21,361 nt of DNA from Patescibacteria group bacterium (GTDB lineage: Bacteria; Patescibacteriota; JAHJAL01), in NCBI GenBank assembly GCA_018814055.1, contig JAHJAL010000032.1, forward strand, positions 1 through 21,361, written 5' to 3'. This document shows, one piece after another, positions 1,405-20,766 of the stretch. The translations under genes and the position numbers were made by a program. Within the stretch, counting starts at the first letter, position 1. Each line of letters starts with the position of its first letter. The notes under the pieces are model-generated. The model was not told the origin of the DNA. It made no database searches and worked only from the letters and a program-made list of their open reading frames with translations.

Positions 1405-2412
1405 ATGATTTTAAGACAACAATTATCTATCGATCTGGGGACATCAAATATTCGCCTGGGAATACCCAAGAAAGGTATTTTGATCAATGAGCCCGCGGTA
1501 GTTGCCTTGGACAGAAGCAATTACAAAATCATGGCCATCGGCGAGGAAGCTCGCGACATGTTGGGCAAAACACCGTCCGATATCATCGCCGCCAAACCCC
1601 TCAAAAACGGAGTTATAGCCAATTATCGCATCACAGAGGCCATTACCAAATATTATACCGACAAAGTCTTACACAACATCCGACTTCTGGGACCGGAAAT
1701 CATGTCATCAGTTCCGGCTGGTATCACCAGCACCGAACGCCGAGCAATTATTGACGCGATAAAATCCGTCGGTACCAACAATGTTTATATCATCAAAGCC
1801 CCACTGGCCGCCGCCCTGGGCGCCGGAATCGCCATTGCCGAACCACACGGTAATATGATTCTGGATATCGGAGCGGGCACCAGCGAAATAGCGGTTATCT
1901 CCCTAGGCAACATCGTTTCTAATTCTTCCATCCGTGTAGCCGGCGATTCGATGGACCACGCAATTATTGATTACATCCGAAAAAAATATAATTTATCAGT
2001 TGGTGAAAAAACTGCTGAAAAAATCAAAATTGAAATCGGTGCCATCTCCCCGCAAATTGACAATAAATCAATCGAAATCAGCGGCAATAACACTATTTCT
2101 GAGTTACCCGAAATCATCAGTATAACTACCGAAGATACTACCGACGCTCTCAAGAATCCGGTCAAAGAAATTATTCACGCCGTCAAACAGGTACTCCAAC
2201 ATACACCACCCGAATTAGCTTCAGATGTTATCGATCGAGGAATTATTCTCACCGGCAGTGGCGCGAAATTAAGAGGGCTGGATGAACTTCTTAGCCGCGT
2301 CACCGGCGTACCGGTTCACATGGCTGAAGATCCGGAGTTTTGTGTCATCAAAGGCTGCAATATTGCCCTGGAAAATATTGAATCCTACAAACGAAGCGCC
2401 ATCAAAGCTTGA
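1405..2412 (+). CDS. mreB: MreB/Mbl-family bacterial actin, variant active site
   Basis: Actin-fold cytoskeletal ATPase that normally positions the lateral-wall elongation machinery at the inner face of the membrane. At 335 aa it has typical family length. Visible motifs are phosphate-1 DLGTSNIRLG (residues 10-19), phosphate-2 DIGAGTSEIAVISLG (154-168), the RVAGDSMDHAIIDYIRKKY segment (177-195), GEKTAEKIKIEIG (200-212) and the adenosine motif GIILTGSGAKLRGLDELL (279-296). Family members usually read IEEPMAAAIGAG at the catalytic loop. Here residues 130-141 read IKAPLAAALGAG, so both glutamates, including the one that activates the attacking water, are replaced by Lys131-Ala132; Thr159 is kept. 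The protein may bind but poorly hydrolyse ATP (inference). It lies 17 nt after murA with no Shine-Dalgarno. It could be a paralogue rather than the principal MreB of the cell. Confidence 0.9.
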   Translation: MILRQQLSIDLGTSNIRLGIPKKGILINEPAVVALDRSNYKIMAIGEEARDMLGKTPSDIIAAKPLKNGVIANYRITEAITKYYTDKVLHNIRLLGPEIMSSVPAGITSTERRAIIDAIKSVGTNNVYIIKAPLAAALGAGIAIAEPHGNMILDIGAGTSEIAVISLGNIVSNSSIRVAGDSMDHAIIDYIRKKYNLSVGEKTAEKIKIEIGAISPQIDNKSIEISGNNTISELPEIISITTEDTTDALKNPVKEIIHAVKQVLQHTPPELASDVIDRGIILTGSGAKLRGLDELLSRVTGVPVHMAEDPEFCVIKGCNIALENIESYKRSAIKA

Positions 2413-13354: not shown

Positions 13355-13771
13355 ATGCAATATCTGCCCGCTCACATTTTTAAGCGAATTCTTGCCGTGG
13401 TGATAGATCATCTGATAGTAATTACCTTATTGACCTTGGTATATACCGAAATACTCCATCCCGATTTTGACCAGTCATCGATAATACTAAACTATACCGA
13501 ATATCTAATATTGTTTACGATAAATTTTATTTATTTTTTTGCCTTGGAGAGTATATTTGGCAAGACCATCGGTAAAAAAATATTCAATCTTGAAATTAGA
13601 GGTACGCATGGAAAAAAGGCAGATATATACCAAACTTTTATTCGCAATCTTATTCGCCCCATTGACTTCATTGGCTTTTACCTGCTGGGATTTATTTTCG
13701 TTGTATATACTCCCCATAATCAACGAATTGGCGACCTGGCCGCGAAAACAGTTGTGGTTGAGAGTATTTAA
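13355..13771 (+). CDS. RDD family integral membrane protein
   Basis: Small membrane protein of 138 aa with three hydrophobic segments (about residues 10-29, 47-67 and 108-124). Family marks are the N-terminal FKRILAVVIDHLIV (Arg11 and Asp18 in the first helix), FGKTIGKKIFNLEIRG (68-83) and the C-terminal NQRIGDLAAKTVVV (122-135). Some RDD proteins have been linked to ion or solute transport, but most have no known function, so none is assigned. The ATG is preceded by AATAATAAA and no Shine-Dalgarno. The stop codon ends only 2 nt before the -35 of the rpsU promoter, so the RDD gene and the ribosomal operon are likely separate transcription units. Confidence 0.88.
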   Translation: MQYLPAHIFKRILAVVIDHLIVITLLTLVYTEILHPDFDQSSIILNYTEYLILFTINFIYFFALESIFGKTIGKKIFNLEIRGTHGKKADIYQTFIRNLIRPIDFIGFYLLGFIFVVYTPHNQRIGDLAAKTVVVESI

Positions 13772-13773
13772 TC

Positions 13774-13802
13774 TTGACTATCATGACCAAATATATGATA
13801 AT
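13774..13802 (+). promoter_or_regulatory. Strong sigma-70-type promoter for the rpsU operon
   Basis: TTGACT (13774-13779, 5/6) and GATAAT (13797-13802, 5/6) are separated by the optimal 17 nt. This is the best promoter match in the window. Transcription should begin near 13809, giving rpsU a leader of about 77 nt. Within that leader CTATGTCA (13808-13815) can pair with TGA-C-CATAG (13844-13852). TCACC (13813-13817) can alternatively pair with GGTGA (13876-13880), which overlaps the Shine-Dalgarno. Confidence 0.7.
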
Positions 13803-13870
13803 CTAAACTATGTCACCATACTTGCAAAAATATTACACTGTACTGACCATAGATCGCCCAATACATACCA

Positions 13871-13880
13871 AAGGGGGTGA
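13871..13880 (+). promoter_or_regulatory. Extended Shine-Dalgarno sequence of rpsU
   Basis: AAGGGGGTGA matches the complement of the canonical 16S rRNA 3' tail over ten positions, with a single G-U wobble (AAGGAGGTGA is the full match). The GGGGG core ends 8 nt before TTG at 13886, the optimal distance. No other gene start in this window has such a sequence. It therefore fixes TTG 13886 as the start, rather than GTG 13877, which lies inside the SD itself. Confidence 0.88.
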
Positions 13881-13885
13881 TTAAT

Positions 13886-14080
13886 TTGACCAAAGTAATA
13901 CGTCGAGACAATGAAAATGTCGAAAGTCTGTTGCGCCGTTTTATCCGCAATGTTCAGCAAAGCCGGGTTCTGGCCAACAAAAAAGAACAACAACGACATA
14001 CAAAACCAATCAAGCGGAAAGTTAAACGCAAAATAGCCATCAAAAAAGCTGCCCGCCAAAGAAGAAGATTGCTCCGCTAA
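13886..14080 (+). CDS. rpsU: Small ribosomal subunit protein bS21
   Basis: A 64-aa, very basic 30S protein located near the 3' end of 16S rRNA, where SD/anti-SD pairing takes place. The sequence fits bS21: TKVIRRDNENVESLLRRFIRNVQQSRVLANKKEQ, followed by an Arg/Lys-rich tail ending AARQRRRLLR. The start is TTG, chosen because it lies at optimal distance from AAGGGGGTGA; the in-frame GTG at 13877 is within that SD. It has its own strong promoter and is followed by ybeY (17 nt), then dgkA, a pairing with ybeY seen in many bacteria. The strong SD with a weak start codon, in a window where other genes lack SD sequences, suggests translational autoregulation by bS21 occupancy of the ribosome (inference; see finding). 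Confidence 0.93.
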   Translation: MTKVIRRDNENVESLLRRFIRNVQQSRVLANKKEQQRHTKPIKRKVKRKIAIKKAARQRRRLLR

Positions 14081-14097: not shown

Positions 14098-14508
14098 ATG
14101 ATAGAAATTATCAATCAAACCTCTTACGATATACCTACACTGCAAATCAGGCAATTATTTGCCAGTCTTTTTGATGCTTTCGGAATTCATTCAAAGATTA
14201 ATTTAGAAATTATTTTTCAGGGCAAAAAGCAAATACAACAGCTCAACCGGCAGTATAGGCAGATAAACGAACCCACCGATGTATTGTCATTTCCCCAAAC
14301 CCTGCCGACGGATCTGACCTTAGATCCCAAATTTTTACTCGGCTCCATCGTAATTTGTCCGGATATTGTCAAAGTACAGGAAAAAAAATTCTGCTACCAG
14401 CCGTATTTAATCCATGGCTTTCTCCACTTGATGGGATATGACCATTCAAATTCCTTGCAAAAAAAAGAATGGCGGGCCCTGGAAAAGAAAATAATCAACC
14501 TCATTTGA
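14098..14508 (+). CDS. ybeY: Endoribonuclease YbeY (rRNA maturation factor)
   Basis: Zinc-dependent single-strand endoribonuclease involved in 16S rRNA 3'-end maturation and ribosome quality control. At 136 aa it is slightly short for the family. The signature HGFLHLMGYDH is intact with zinc ligands His106, His110 and His116. LNRQYRQINEPTDVLSFP (residues 49-66) matches the conserved LNREYR...PTDVLSFP block. It is 17 nt after rpsU and 6 nt before dgkA. The upstream AGCTAGAAGAG is purine-rich but only a poor SD match. Co-transcription with bS21 puts two factors acting at the 16S 3' end in one operon. Confidence 0.94.
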   Translation: MIEIINQTSYDIPTLQIRQLFASLFDAFGIHSKINLEIIFQGKKQIQQLNRQYRQINEPTDVLSFPQTLPTDLTLDPKFLLGSIVICPDIVKVQEKKFCYQPYLIHGFLHLMGYDHSNSLQKKEWRALEKKIINLI

Positions 14509-17114: not shown

Positions 17115-18233
17115 ATGAAAAAAACCAGATATCTCACCATTATTATATTGTCTGTCACGCTGTTGTTGATACTAACATCCAATCCGAGTTTTGCCTCCGG
17201 CTTGGATTTTTCCCGTGGCGTCATGCCCGACAGCCCCTTGTATCCCATCGACCTCAACCTGGAAAAATTAACTCTCATTTCTGCCGGCCAAGACACCATC
17301 AAACAAGCCAAACTGCACTTCCAATACAGCACAGAAAGATTAAACGAATTAGATTACCTAACTTCCGACCAGGACATAGAAATCAGTAACATTATTGACG
17401 TCAGCGACGAATACCAAAAAAGCATAAATAAATTCGCTAAACTCCTAAGTACTTCTGATAATTCATCCGAAATAGAAGGATTACCTCCCCAAATTGATCA
17501 ACTCCAAGCGATTCAGACCAAAGTAGTCGACAAAATAAACAATCAACAATCTTCTCCCGAATTAAAGATAGTGGTTAAATCTGCCATCAAAGAATCACAA
17601 GCCGAAATTATTCAAGCAGTTGAATCTGCCAAAAAACCTATCAAAAATTCTGGCCCCAACAGTGAAAACAGTGTTATTGAAACGAAACTGGACAAAACTA
17701 TCAAGAATCTAAGCATCACCAAAGAACAACTGTCAAAAGAGATCAAACAGGACGAGATAACTCTCAAGTCAGAAACCAAAGTAACATCCCCAGTTACTAC
17801 TGAAATTACCAACATCAAAACTAATTCTGAAATTTCCAACAAGAACAATCCGGAAAATATCAGCTCTGAAACTGATTCCCCCGAAGTATCTTTGCCGGTC
17901 AATCCAGAAATTAGTAATCAGTCGGCTCAATGGTATTATTCACCTTCCTGTGATTATGTTTCTATTGTTCCCGGTAAAGATCCGGTCTGTGGAGAAGACA
18001 TGATTGCTGTTTCTACCCTGGCTCCCGACCATTCATTTTTTTCCAAATACATTTACAAAGATGATAAATACATTCAAAACATAGACGACCTTATCCAAAA
18101 AGAAGAAGACAAAGTAGTCATAGTAGAAGAAAATACTGAAGTATTCGTAGAAATTGTTGAAACTCCGGAACCCGAAAATTCAGTTGGTAATCCAGTTGCG
18201 GAAAGCACGGAAAATAGTACAACGGATCTCTAA
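17115..18233 (+). CDS. Secreted DUF5667-like protein with a metal-binding-like C-terminal patch
   Basis: 372 aa with a signal peptide (KKTR, then a hydrophobic run at 6-21, likely cleaved after SFA-27). FSRGVMPDSPLYPIDLNLEKL (from residue 32) followed by the helical AKLHFQYSTERLNELDYL (65-82) matches the DUF5667 pattern common in CPR bacteria; its function is unknown. Then comes a helical and Ser/Thr/Lys-rich linker (~120-265). Residues 274-298 (YYSPSCDYVSIVPGKDPVCG, then EDMIA) resemble the heavy-metal-binding domain pattern YTCPMHP...PGKCPxCGMDLV. The C-terminus (~327-372) is strongly acidic. It follows the two-component system by 127 nt and could be its target or sensor partner (inference). 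Confidence 0.8.
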   Translation: MKKTRYLTIIILSVTLLLILTSNPSFASGLDFSRGVMPDSPLYPIDLNLEKLTLISAGQDTIKQAKLHFQYSTERLNELDYLTSDQDIEISNIIDVSDEYQKSINKFAKLLSTSDNSSEIEGLPPQIDQLQAIQTKVVDKINNQQSSPELKIVVKSAIKESQAEIIQAVESAKKPIKNSGPNSENSVIETKLDKTIKNLSITKEQLSKEIKQDEITLKSETKVTSPVTTEITNIKTNSEISNKNNPENISSETDSPEVSLPVNPEISNQSAQWYYSPSCDYVSIVPGKDPVCGEDMIAVSTLAPDHSFFSKYIYKDDKYIQNIDDLIQKEEDKVVIVEENTEVFVEIVETPEPENSVGNPVAESTENSTTDL

Positions 18234-18492: not shown

Positions 18493-20766
18493 ATGTATAA
18501 AGCAAAGTCTAACTTAGGCAAAGTTGTTAGCATTGTTGGCATGTTTGCCATCATTGTGGCCACTTTTGCCTTCGCCTTTACCACAGCTCCTGTAGCTGCT
18601 GCCGAATACGACTACCAATGGGCAAGTCAATCAGACTGGCCTACACTTCCTCAAGGCGGTAGCTCTACCTTGACTTTGACACTAAAAAATACCGGTACTG
18701 CAGCCTGGACCAATTCAGGATCAAATCCTGTCCGTCTGGCTACAGTCAATCCTCAAGATCGAAACTCTGGATTCTACAAAGCTGGCGAATGGGAAGCAAC
18801 CAATCGTGCGGCCAACCTCAATGAATCTAGTGTTGCTCCTGGAGAATTTGGATCCTTTACATTTACTGTAATGGGCAACCCAGCTCCCGGGCACTATCCG
18901 GAATATTTTGCTCCAGTAGTGGAGAATATGGCCTGGATGGACAATCTTGCTGCATATCCACAAGGTAGATATGGTATCTACTGGGATATCACTGTTACCC
19001 AGGGTGCTGGTGCCAGCGGCTATTCAGCCGAATTAGTGTCAAAATCTGATGACCCAAGTATCGCTCCCGGCGACAATGCCACCATGACTGTTACCGTCAA
19101 AAACATCGGTACAGCCACTTGGTCAAACACTGGCGCCAATCCAGTCCATCTTGGAACCTGGGATTCACAAGATCGCAGTTCAAGTTTCTATGATGTCAAC
19201 TGGTTAACCACCAATCGCGCGGCCGCCCTAGATGAAGCCAGTGTTGCCCCCGGAGCTCAAGGAACATTTGAGTTCATACTCAAAGTACCTTCCAGCAAGT
19301 CAGAGGGAACATACACTGAAAATTTCAACCTGGTAGCTGAGAACCTAGCCTGGTTCAACCTACCGATTTCCTTTACTATTACCGTTGCGGGTACACCTAC
19401 CGGTGACGTAACTGTATCATTGGCTTCTGACACACCTACCGGCATGACCCTTCCAAAGGGCGCCACTGGTGTACCTATGGCCAAATTCAAATTCGTTGGA
19501 ACCGGCACAATCAACAGCCTCACTGTCCATCGCTATGGTGTTGGTGCAGTTGGTGCTTTCGACAACGTCTATCTCTATGAAGGCGATAATCGCCTAACCA
19601 ACGGCCGAAGTATCTCATCTGCCACACACAATGCCGAATTCAACAATCTCGGCTTTGATGTATCTGGAACTGACTACCTAACCGTAGTTGCTGATTTTGA
19701 CGCAGCTGCTCAAGGCCAACATGGTTTTGAGATCCAATCAGCTGACAAAGTCAATCTATCATCAGTCAGTGGATCATTCCCTGTCAAAGGTGAATTATTC
19801 GCTGTTGGTGATGAAGTAGCTAGTCAGGTCACAATCAATGACAAACCAAATCCAGCCAATCCTTCTGTTGGTGAATTTGCCGAATTGGCCAAATTCGAAA
19901 TCGTCAATGGAGTCAACAGTACTGACTTCCGACGCATCACTCTCACTCAAGCTGGTACCATCAACAATGATGATCTATCTGACCTTGAGTTGTGGAGTGA
20001 CAATGACAACAAACTATTGGCCGAAGCTCCATCACTAGATGGTGACCAACTCAACTTCCAGATTGCCAACTCTCCCGGCTATGGCATGCCTGATGGTTCT
20101 ACTCGCAAATTTACCGTCAAAGGTATGACATCCGGTAAGAGCAATCGAACCGTCCGATTCTATACTGAATACTCATCTGACATCCTGGTCATTGATACTC
20201 AGTATGATGTTGGCGCTCAAATCACCAATGCATATGATGGTACAGGTACCGACTTCTCAGAAGTTACCCTCGAGGGTGGTGATGTAACTATCGCCTACGG
20301 CGGTCCCGCTGCCGGCGATATCTCCAAGAATGGAGAAGATCAAGTAATGCTTAATTTTGCCATCACTTCTGCTTCAAGAGACCTAGAAGTCAAGAAAGTA
20401 AGTCTGACTCTAGCTGGTGAAGACGCTGGTGGTGCTGATACCGACCTTCTCAAAAATGGTACTACTTACTATTTCGACGATATCAAAATCCGACAAACCG
20501 ATAGTGCCTACACCGCCGCCAGCACTCAAGCCGTGGGCAGTGTTTTGATGGGTCCAAAATCTCTCGCCAGTGCTACTTGTACAGGTGCTGAGACCAGCTG
20601 TGACCTGTCATTTACTGACACATTCGATATTATGGGTGGCGAAACCATGTATCTGCAAGCTACCTGGGATCCTTCCAATGATATCTTCCATGATGGCACA
20701 CATTCCTACCGAGCCACGATTGGCCCATGGGATGACAACAACTTCCGATACACCGACCCAACCTAA
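18493..20766 (+). CDS. Secreted surface protein with two NBR1-type Ig-like domains (frame interrupted by TAA)
   Basis: 757 aa up to the TAA. The signal peptide has a hydrophobic core at ~11-30 and likely cleavage after AAA-37. Two tandem NBR1/FW-type Ig domains follow: ~39-169 and ~177-298. Both show the pattern SLxLxNTGTAxW...NPVxLxT..P/SQDR.S.FY...W...NRAA.L.E.SVAPG...F.F, and ENLAW near the end. From ~307 onward there are roughly 130-residue beta-rich repeats (about 307-420, 440-570 and 596-740) with motifs such as INSLTVHRYG, FDNVYLYEGDNRL and EVKKVSLTLAGEDAGG. Two Cys (696, 703) may form a disulfide. It is probably a cell-surface or S-layer-like protein (inference). No SD is present. The reading frame continues past the TAA with a further repeat of the same kind, so this is most likely the N-terminal part of a larger gene. 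Confidence 0.85.
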   Translation: MYKAKSNLGKVVSIVGMFAIIVATFAFAFTTAPVAAAEYDYQWASQSDWPTLPQGGSSTLTLTLKNTGTAAWTNSGSNPVRLATVNPQDRNSGFYKAGEWEATNRAANLNESSVAPGEFGSFTFTVMGNPAPGHYPEYFAPVVENMAWMDNLAAYPQGRYGIYWDITVTQGAGASGYSAELVSKSDDPSIAPGDNATMTVTVKNIGTATWSNTGANPVHLGTWDSQDRSSSFYDVNWLTTNRAAALDEASVAPGAQGTFEFILKVPSSKSEGTYTENFNLVAENLAWFNLPISFTITVAGTPTGDVTVSLASDTPTGMTLPKGATGVPMAKFKFVGTGTINSLTVHRYGVGAVGAFDNVYLYEGDNRLTNGRSISSATHNAEFNNLGFDVSGTDYLTVVADFDAAAQGQHGFEIQSADKVNLSSVSGSFPVKGELFAVGDEVASQVTINDKPNPANPSVGEFAELAKFEIVNGVNSTDFRRITLTQAGTINNDDLSDLELWSDNDNKLLAEAPSLDGDQLNFQIANSPGYGMPDGSTRKFTVKGMTSGKSNRTVRFYTEYSSDILVIDTQYDVGAQITNAYDGTGTDFSEVTLEGGDVTIAYGGPAAGDISKNGEDQVMLNFAITSASRDLEVKKVSLTLAGEDAGGADTDLLKNGTTYYFDDIKIRQTDSAYTAASTQAVGSVLMGPKSLASATCTGAETSCDLSFTDTFDIMGGETMYLQATWDPSNDIFHDGTHSYRATIGPWDDNNFRYTDPT

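Follow-up and report, generated by a model that had tools for sequence, protein, structure and literature searches.

The window, that is, the whole stretch of 21,361 nucleotides analyzed here, carries the gene of ribosomal protein bS21 (rpsU) between genes for an RDD-family protein and YbeY. Seven of the window genes were identified with Pfam, and the remaining names come from a reading of the translations. The elements of the rpsU locus are the following:

13355..13771, + strand: upstream neighbour, an RDD-family protein (PF06271)
13774..13802, + strand: candidate sigma-70 promoter TTGACT-17-GATAAT (10/12 matches, weak evidence alone)
13809..13885, + strand: putative rpsU 5' leader of about 77 nt, placed by the position of the promoter
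13852..13882, + strand: predicted hairpin (predicted fold), in which GATCGCCC (13852-13859) pairs with the 3' half of the Shine-Dalgarno sequence (13875-13882)
13870..13882, + strand: extended Shine-Dalgarno sequence (SD) AAAGGGGGTGATT, a 13-bp complement of the canonical 16S tail
13886..14080, + strand: rpsU, encoding bS21 of 64 aa with a TTG start (PF01165; alignment with nine relatives)
14098..14508, + strand: downstream neighbour ybeY (PF02130), 17 nt past rpsU and without an SD

The open reading frame 13877-14080 is identified as bS21 by its match to PF01165 (34 bits against a cut-off of 27). Translation from TTG 13886, and not from the overlapping GTG 13877, yields the N-terminus common to the nine relatives in the alignment. 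The G-run of the SD ends 8 nt 5' of this TTG. Pairing of AAAGGGGGTGATT with the 16S tail GGATCACCTCCTTT comprises 13 bp, with an energy of -19.5 kcal/mol in RNAduplex and of -22.3 kcal/mol as a bare stack sum (hereafter, own scale). As the initial annotation of this DNA had claimed, rpsU is the sole gene of the window with an extended SD: at 16 other starts nothing stronger than -7.9 (stack sum) is found, and this best pairing falls outside the SD core. Elsewhere in the window, positions 17115-18233 encode a DUF5667 protein, which is followed at 18493-20766 by a large protein that is predicted to be exported and contains an N_BRCA1_IG-like domain (PF16158).

The gene had also been credited with its own strong promoter. 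The element TTGACT-17-GATAAT is indeed present; its designation as strong is plausible at best, since shuffles of the promoter region yield 2.0 (sd 1.5) sites with an equal score of 10/12. Another suggestion was that the motif TCACC could mask the SD. This motif does lie at 13813-13817, but its role as a masking element is not supported: in the predicted fold, 13852-13859 is the partner of the SD, leaving AAAGG in the loop. A search of the window against Rfam gave zero matches at the gathering score.

The genome to which the window belongs is assembled into 925,018 bases in 173 contigs. Besides the window, 80 contigs were examined, 18 of which are all N; the readable part amounts to 379,607 bases (41% of the genome) and holds 434 other genes of at least 60 aa. 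Gene starts were taken from a simple ORF caller, so the SD values of single genes are rough. A mock position upstream of each gene start, scored like an SD, served as the control. General SD usage above mock was not seen among the 434 genes of this readable 41%. In RNAduplex, 34 genes against 39 mock positions reach -9 kcal/mol and 4 against 6 reach -13 kcal/mol, and the count for genes is below that for mock at eight of nine thresholds, the exception being -15 (2 vs 1). On the own scale the counts are 53 vs 53 at -9, 22 vs 17 at -11 (the largest excess over mock on this scale) and 5 vs 10 at -13. By SD energy (RNAduplex), rpsU is the first of the 435 genes of the readable part, which bears out its description as an outlier. 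The readable genome resembles those of Flavobacteriales, in which SDs are rare genome-wide according to the available text of PMC9976891, and rpsU is the outlier.

Literally, rpsU is not the sole strong SD of the genome, since the second-best of the 435 genes reaches -18.4 (RNAduplex). This gene (L286, contig C77, 5069-5986) encodes a predicted secreted protein of 305 aa. Its SD, AGAGGGGGTGAT, is the only other one near rpsU strength among the 434 genes and overlaps the end of the upstream gene; the contig is plasmid-like in appearance. The core AAGGRGGTGA occurs 7 times genome-wide (the reversed pattern, 4 times). At the six other sites a start codon is absent, the frame has 12 codons, or the site lies inside a longer ORF (the frames were partly read by eye), one site being ambiguous. 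At the latter (L125, contig C48, about 1490-1515, minus strand), AAAGGGGGTGA stands ahead of a lipoprotein-like ORF of 145 aa; ATG, GTG and TTG are absent at normal SD spacing, and an SD-internal GTG or an ATT could serve as the start.

Relatives were drawn from the whole phylum, because the genome is alone in its order and class within the compared set. A scan of the genomes' contigs with the window protein alone gave zero close homologues. Of 379 genomes, 294 have a match to PF01165. The sample consists of the 30 best of these matches, supplemented mostly by a single match for each family from among those listed, and is thus non-random. From 90 loci, L250 and L264 were dropped (start not found), which leaves 88 relatives in 61 families. 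The rpsU starts were picked for the best SD and those of the neighbours were not, save in the comparison with the best of three starts given below; in 7 of these 88 loci, the start picked in this way is located far 5' of the conserved domain.

Recurrence of the rpsU SD among relatives, a check named beforehand, was found. With starts chosen as above, an SD of -13 or below (RNAduplex) is present in 51 of 88 relatives and, by family medians, in 37 of 61 families; a strong rpsU SD is absent in the other 37 relatives. The same threshold (RNAduplex) is reached by 27 of 891 neighbouring genes and by 7 of 891 mock positions. Where eight or more neighbours could be compared (55 loci), rpsU ranks first by SD within its neighbourhood in 33, with 3.3 expected (RNAduplex), and still in 26 when the neighbours are given the best of their first three starts (own scale). 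Some SD usage is seen at the neighbouring genes of the relatives (127 of 891 at -9 or below, mock 67; RNAduplex). The extended SD of rpsU is not universal, since that of E. coli rpsU is -8.5 (RNAduplex). A unit closely like that of the window, GGAGGTGATTTTTT-TTG, is found in L152 and L221 (both CPR2); in these two loci and in L227 the SD has -20.7 to -23.6 (own scale) and stands 3-5 nt 5' of the TTG.

The weak start codon had initially been regarded as the partner of the strong SD. Counting non-ATG codons among starts picked for the best SD was rejected as biased, since this choice favours non-ATG in any gene (neighbours treated alike give 398 of 891 non-ATG). For this reason, genes were counted in which ATG is unavailable in frame from the upstream stop (at most 120 nt back) to five codons past the start. 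ATG is unavailable by this definition, leaving a TTG or GTG start, in 29 of the 55 rpsU genes with a strong SD (own scale; 22 of 41 families) against 4 of the 33 other rpsU genes. Over the first 25 codons past the upstream stop, ATG is missing in 28 of 55 strong-SD rpsU genes; the figures are 7 of 33 for the remaining rpsU genes and 133 of 892 for the neighbours. The supposed partnership was thus upheld, and the no-ATG counts indicate that long SDs and weak start codons recur together as a unit.

A 16S gene was not found in the assembly of 925,018 bases. The tail was searched for in 80 of the 90 genomes with a pattern that requires CTCCTT, two mismatches being tolerated overall. It matched in 65 of 80 relatives, all of which have CCTCC, the pattern itself demanding CTCCTT; the expected retention of CCTCC holds for the relatives in which the pattern matched. 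The 65 tails are ATCACCTCC (57), ATTACCTCC (5), AACACCTCC (2) and AATACCTCC (1); one reading of the 16S tails covered a single strand only. AAYACC tails occur in 14 genomes, 11 of which have an rpsU match (7 of these above the family cut-off). Of these 11 altered-tail genomes, two have an rpsU SD with a better fit to their own tail, one has an SD for which this is not the case, and eight are without an SD at rpsU. The two better fits are L240 (genome G014, tail AATACC; -20.8 with its own tail vs -16.2) and L263 (genome G103, tail AACACC; -16.5 with its own tail vs -12.0). In the 5 ATTACC genomes the rpsU SD is absent when scored with the canonical tail. This mixed covariation weakly suggests that the pairing between the rpsU SD and the tail is real.

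An extended SD on rpsU alone is found in F. johnsoniae, in which feedback has been proven genetically and biochemically; initiation on rpsU is faster when the ribosomes lack bS21, and this requires the extended SD (McNutt et al. 2023, PMC9976891, from the part of the paper available). The same text describes sequestration of the 16S tail in Bacteroidota by bS21, bS18 and bS6, with Tyr54 of bS21 in the tail pocket, and characterizes the rpsU SD of this phylum by an energy below -13 kcal/mol, 9-13 bp, and the strongest position in the genome or among ribosomal genes; in Bacteroidia the mode is about -20 kcal/mol, computed with another program. The rpsU of the window is similar in that it stands out by its SD from a genome whose readable 41% shows no general SD usage, and in its 13 bp and -19.5 (RNAduplex, vs about -20 with the other program); the CCUCC tail is shared by the relatives in which a tail was found. 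The genes of bS18 and bS6 are present in the genome. It is unlike the Bacteroidota case in that it belongs to another phylum, Y54 is absent, the rpsU start in Patescibacteria is often TTG or GTG, and the system is known here from sequence alone. The non-ATG start appears to be a Patescibacteria addition, not seen in the available portion of the F. johnsoniae account (PMC9976891).

At the position of F. johnsoniae Y54, the bS21 of the window has K, and all 17 of the 88 relatives that were aligned have K or R. In this respect the window, with an extended SD on rpsU and a bS21 without Y54, is like Chlorobia, whose rpsU has an extended SD within the limits used for Bacteroidota, also without Y54; a further 11 contact residues are either kept in Chlorobia or replaced conservatively, and autoregulation has been predicted only (PMC9976891, available text). 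According to the accessible part of a review (PMC10931766), conservation of the C-terminal region with which bS21 hides the tail is limited to Bacteroidota, and the Flavobacterium mechanism is termed a unique case.

The most likely purpose of the rpsU SD would be autogenous control of bS21. Initiation on rpsU could proceed by a route unused in the genome at large, namely the 13-bp pairing of the leader with the 16S tail, and the TTG start would make the gene dependent on this pairing. In complete 30S subunits the tail would be unavailable or unused, and subunits without bS21 would expose it, capture rpsU mRNA and restore bS21. We infer that the occupancy of bS21 would determine whether the tail is accessible, and that the feedback would follow from this. 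Such logic would explain why the SD of rpsU is an outlier, why the anti-SD is kept and why the start codon depends on an SD. The initial interpretation along these lines keeps its outlier SD, its recurrence, the CCTCC of the relatives and the link to non-ATG starts, and loses the masking by TCACC. Several observations speak against feedback, namely K or R at the Y54 position in the window and in all aligned relatives, the conservation of the tail-hiding C-terminal region in Bacteroidota alone, the moderate SD usage at other genes of the relatives, which the strength of the rpsU SD does not follow locally, the 37 of 88 relatives without a strong rpsU SD, and the altered tails, with one case not covarying and eight without an SD. 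On the whole, our judgment inclines slightly towards autogenous feedback at the window rpsU, with translation of the gene by ribosomes lacking bS21.

A long SD could also provide constitutive high-efficiency initiation, offsetting the weak start or fixing a high rate with no feedback. Its combination with TTG or GTG could then be understood as a balanced constitutive design, and the strength of the rpsU SD in fact shows no correlation with SD usage around it (Spearman -0.01, n=55). This explanation seems rather unlikely to us given that rpsR is without an SD and rpsF has just GAAGGAG (-11.5, own scale), these being the sole ribosomal genes compared by name with rpsU, that the SD of E. coli rpsU is as modest as stated above, and that rpsU stands out in many families, as it does in Bacteroidota with proven feedback (PMC9976891, available text).

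Alternatively, bS21 could act with the opposite sign: it would aid the pairing of the tail with mRNA, and the strong SD would rescue rpsU translation when pairing is poor, or make a positive loop. The bS21 profile (window and nine relatives) is far nearer to a 365-entry bS21 chain, which we take to be E. coli bS21 (E 3.8e-11), than to F. johnsoniae (0.012). In E. coli, SD mRNAs depend on bS1, uS2 and bS21 (PMC4929434), and bS21 provides SD pairing (PMC10931766), as far as the accessible text of these two sources goes, and these descriptions of bS21 as promoting or required for SD initiation also count against the feedback considered above. A readable genome without SD usage, as in Flavobacteriales, fits a normally unused tail, and a helping role of bS21 is considered improbable. 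Classical repression, in which bS21 binds its own leader (e.g., the 13852-13882 hairpin) and masks the SD, could draw on the 8 bp and -10.3 kcal/mol of the hairpin predicted over the 3' half of the SD. However, masking is at chance: the unpaired value is 0.41 in the window vs 0.40 in the shuffled leader, and the mean over the window and 55 relatives is 0.43 vs 0.41 (40 shuffles each). Masking was thus rejected as a conserved switch, and repression of this kind is judged highly improbable.

A report of bS21 feedback or of an extended rpsU SD in Patescibacteria was not found in a literature search that was thin on subscription journals and preprints. The window rpsU is probably a fresh variant of the known bS21 feedback switch. 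Translation of rpsU by bS21-free ribosomes is among the few clear cases of specialized ribosomes in bacteria. If it is true in Patescibacteria, the circuit is either ancient or has evolved twice; it would also give a reason for a non-SD genome to retain its anti-SD and offer a way to study the control of ribosomes in a phylum of which few members are in culture.

Relatives without the extended SD point to other modes of initiation. The named loci L150-L229 (e.g., L153-L170), the best 80 of 176 from an alignment-based scan, are mostly labelled Saccharibacteria, and this set overlaps the genomes of the relatives. A -10 box (at least 5/6 matches) that ends 4-9 nt 5' of the rpsU start is present in 56 of these 80 loci; a control position gives 3. 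Such a box is present in 6 of 25 relatives with no SD and in 0 of 55 with a strong SD. Many Saccharibacteria rpsU genes are thus probably expressed as leaderless bS21 mRNA, judging by promoter position. In the no-SD loci, -10 boxes are frequent at genes other than rpsU as well (37 of 219, control position 15), so that rpsU is not set apart there by a leaderless start. E. coli 61S ribosomes, which are drug-induced and lack several proteins including bS21, select leaderless mRNA (PMC4929434, available text). The likeness lies in the choice of a special mRNA class by bS21-less ribosomes, many Saccharibacteria rpsU looking leaderless; unlike the situation supposed here, 61S ribosomes arise from drug treatment with several proteins missing, and the parallel concerns the leaderless relatives and not the window.

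It could be supposed that throughout Patescibacteria rpsU is built for starting by bS21-less ribosomes, although not always by the same route. Some of the genes would combine an extended SD and a weak start, many of those in Saccharibacteria would be transcribed without a leader, and in one family a folded spacer would keep a GGAGGTG at a distance from the start. The occupancy of bS21 would then be sensed via the mode of initiation, and the feedback would be older and more varied than the Bacteroidota case. This generalization is offered tentatively and is regarded as doubtful.

In the family with the distal motif (f38), GGAGGTG (in one case GGGGGTG) lies 48-82 nt 5' of the rpsU start in 12 of 18 sampled genomes (L074-L078, L080-L083, L086, L087, L269); L078 has a nearer SD besides. 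Compared with shuffled sequences, the spacers have more stable predicted folds (z from -1.0 to -5.8, mean -3.3). In L074, L077 and L083, which belong to one genus, the hairpin stems are differing but complementary and occupy places that are similar by eye, although a simple sequence alignment does not bring these structures into register. The distal GGAGGTG together with its folded spacer may constitute an unreported structured leader.
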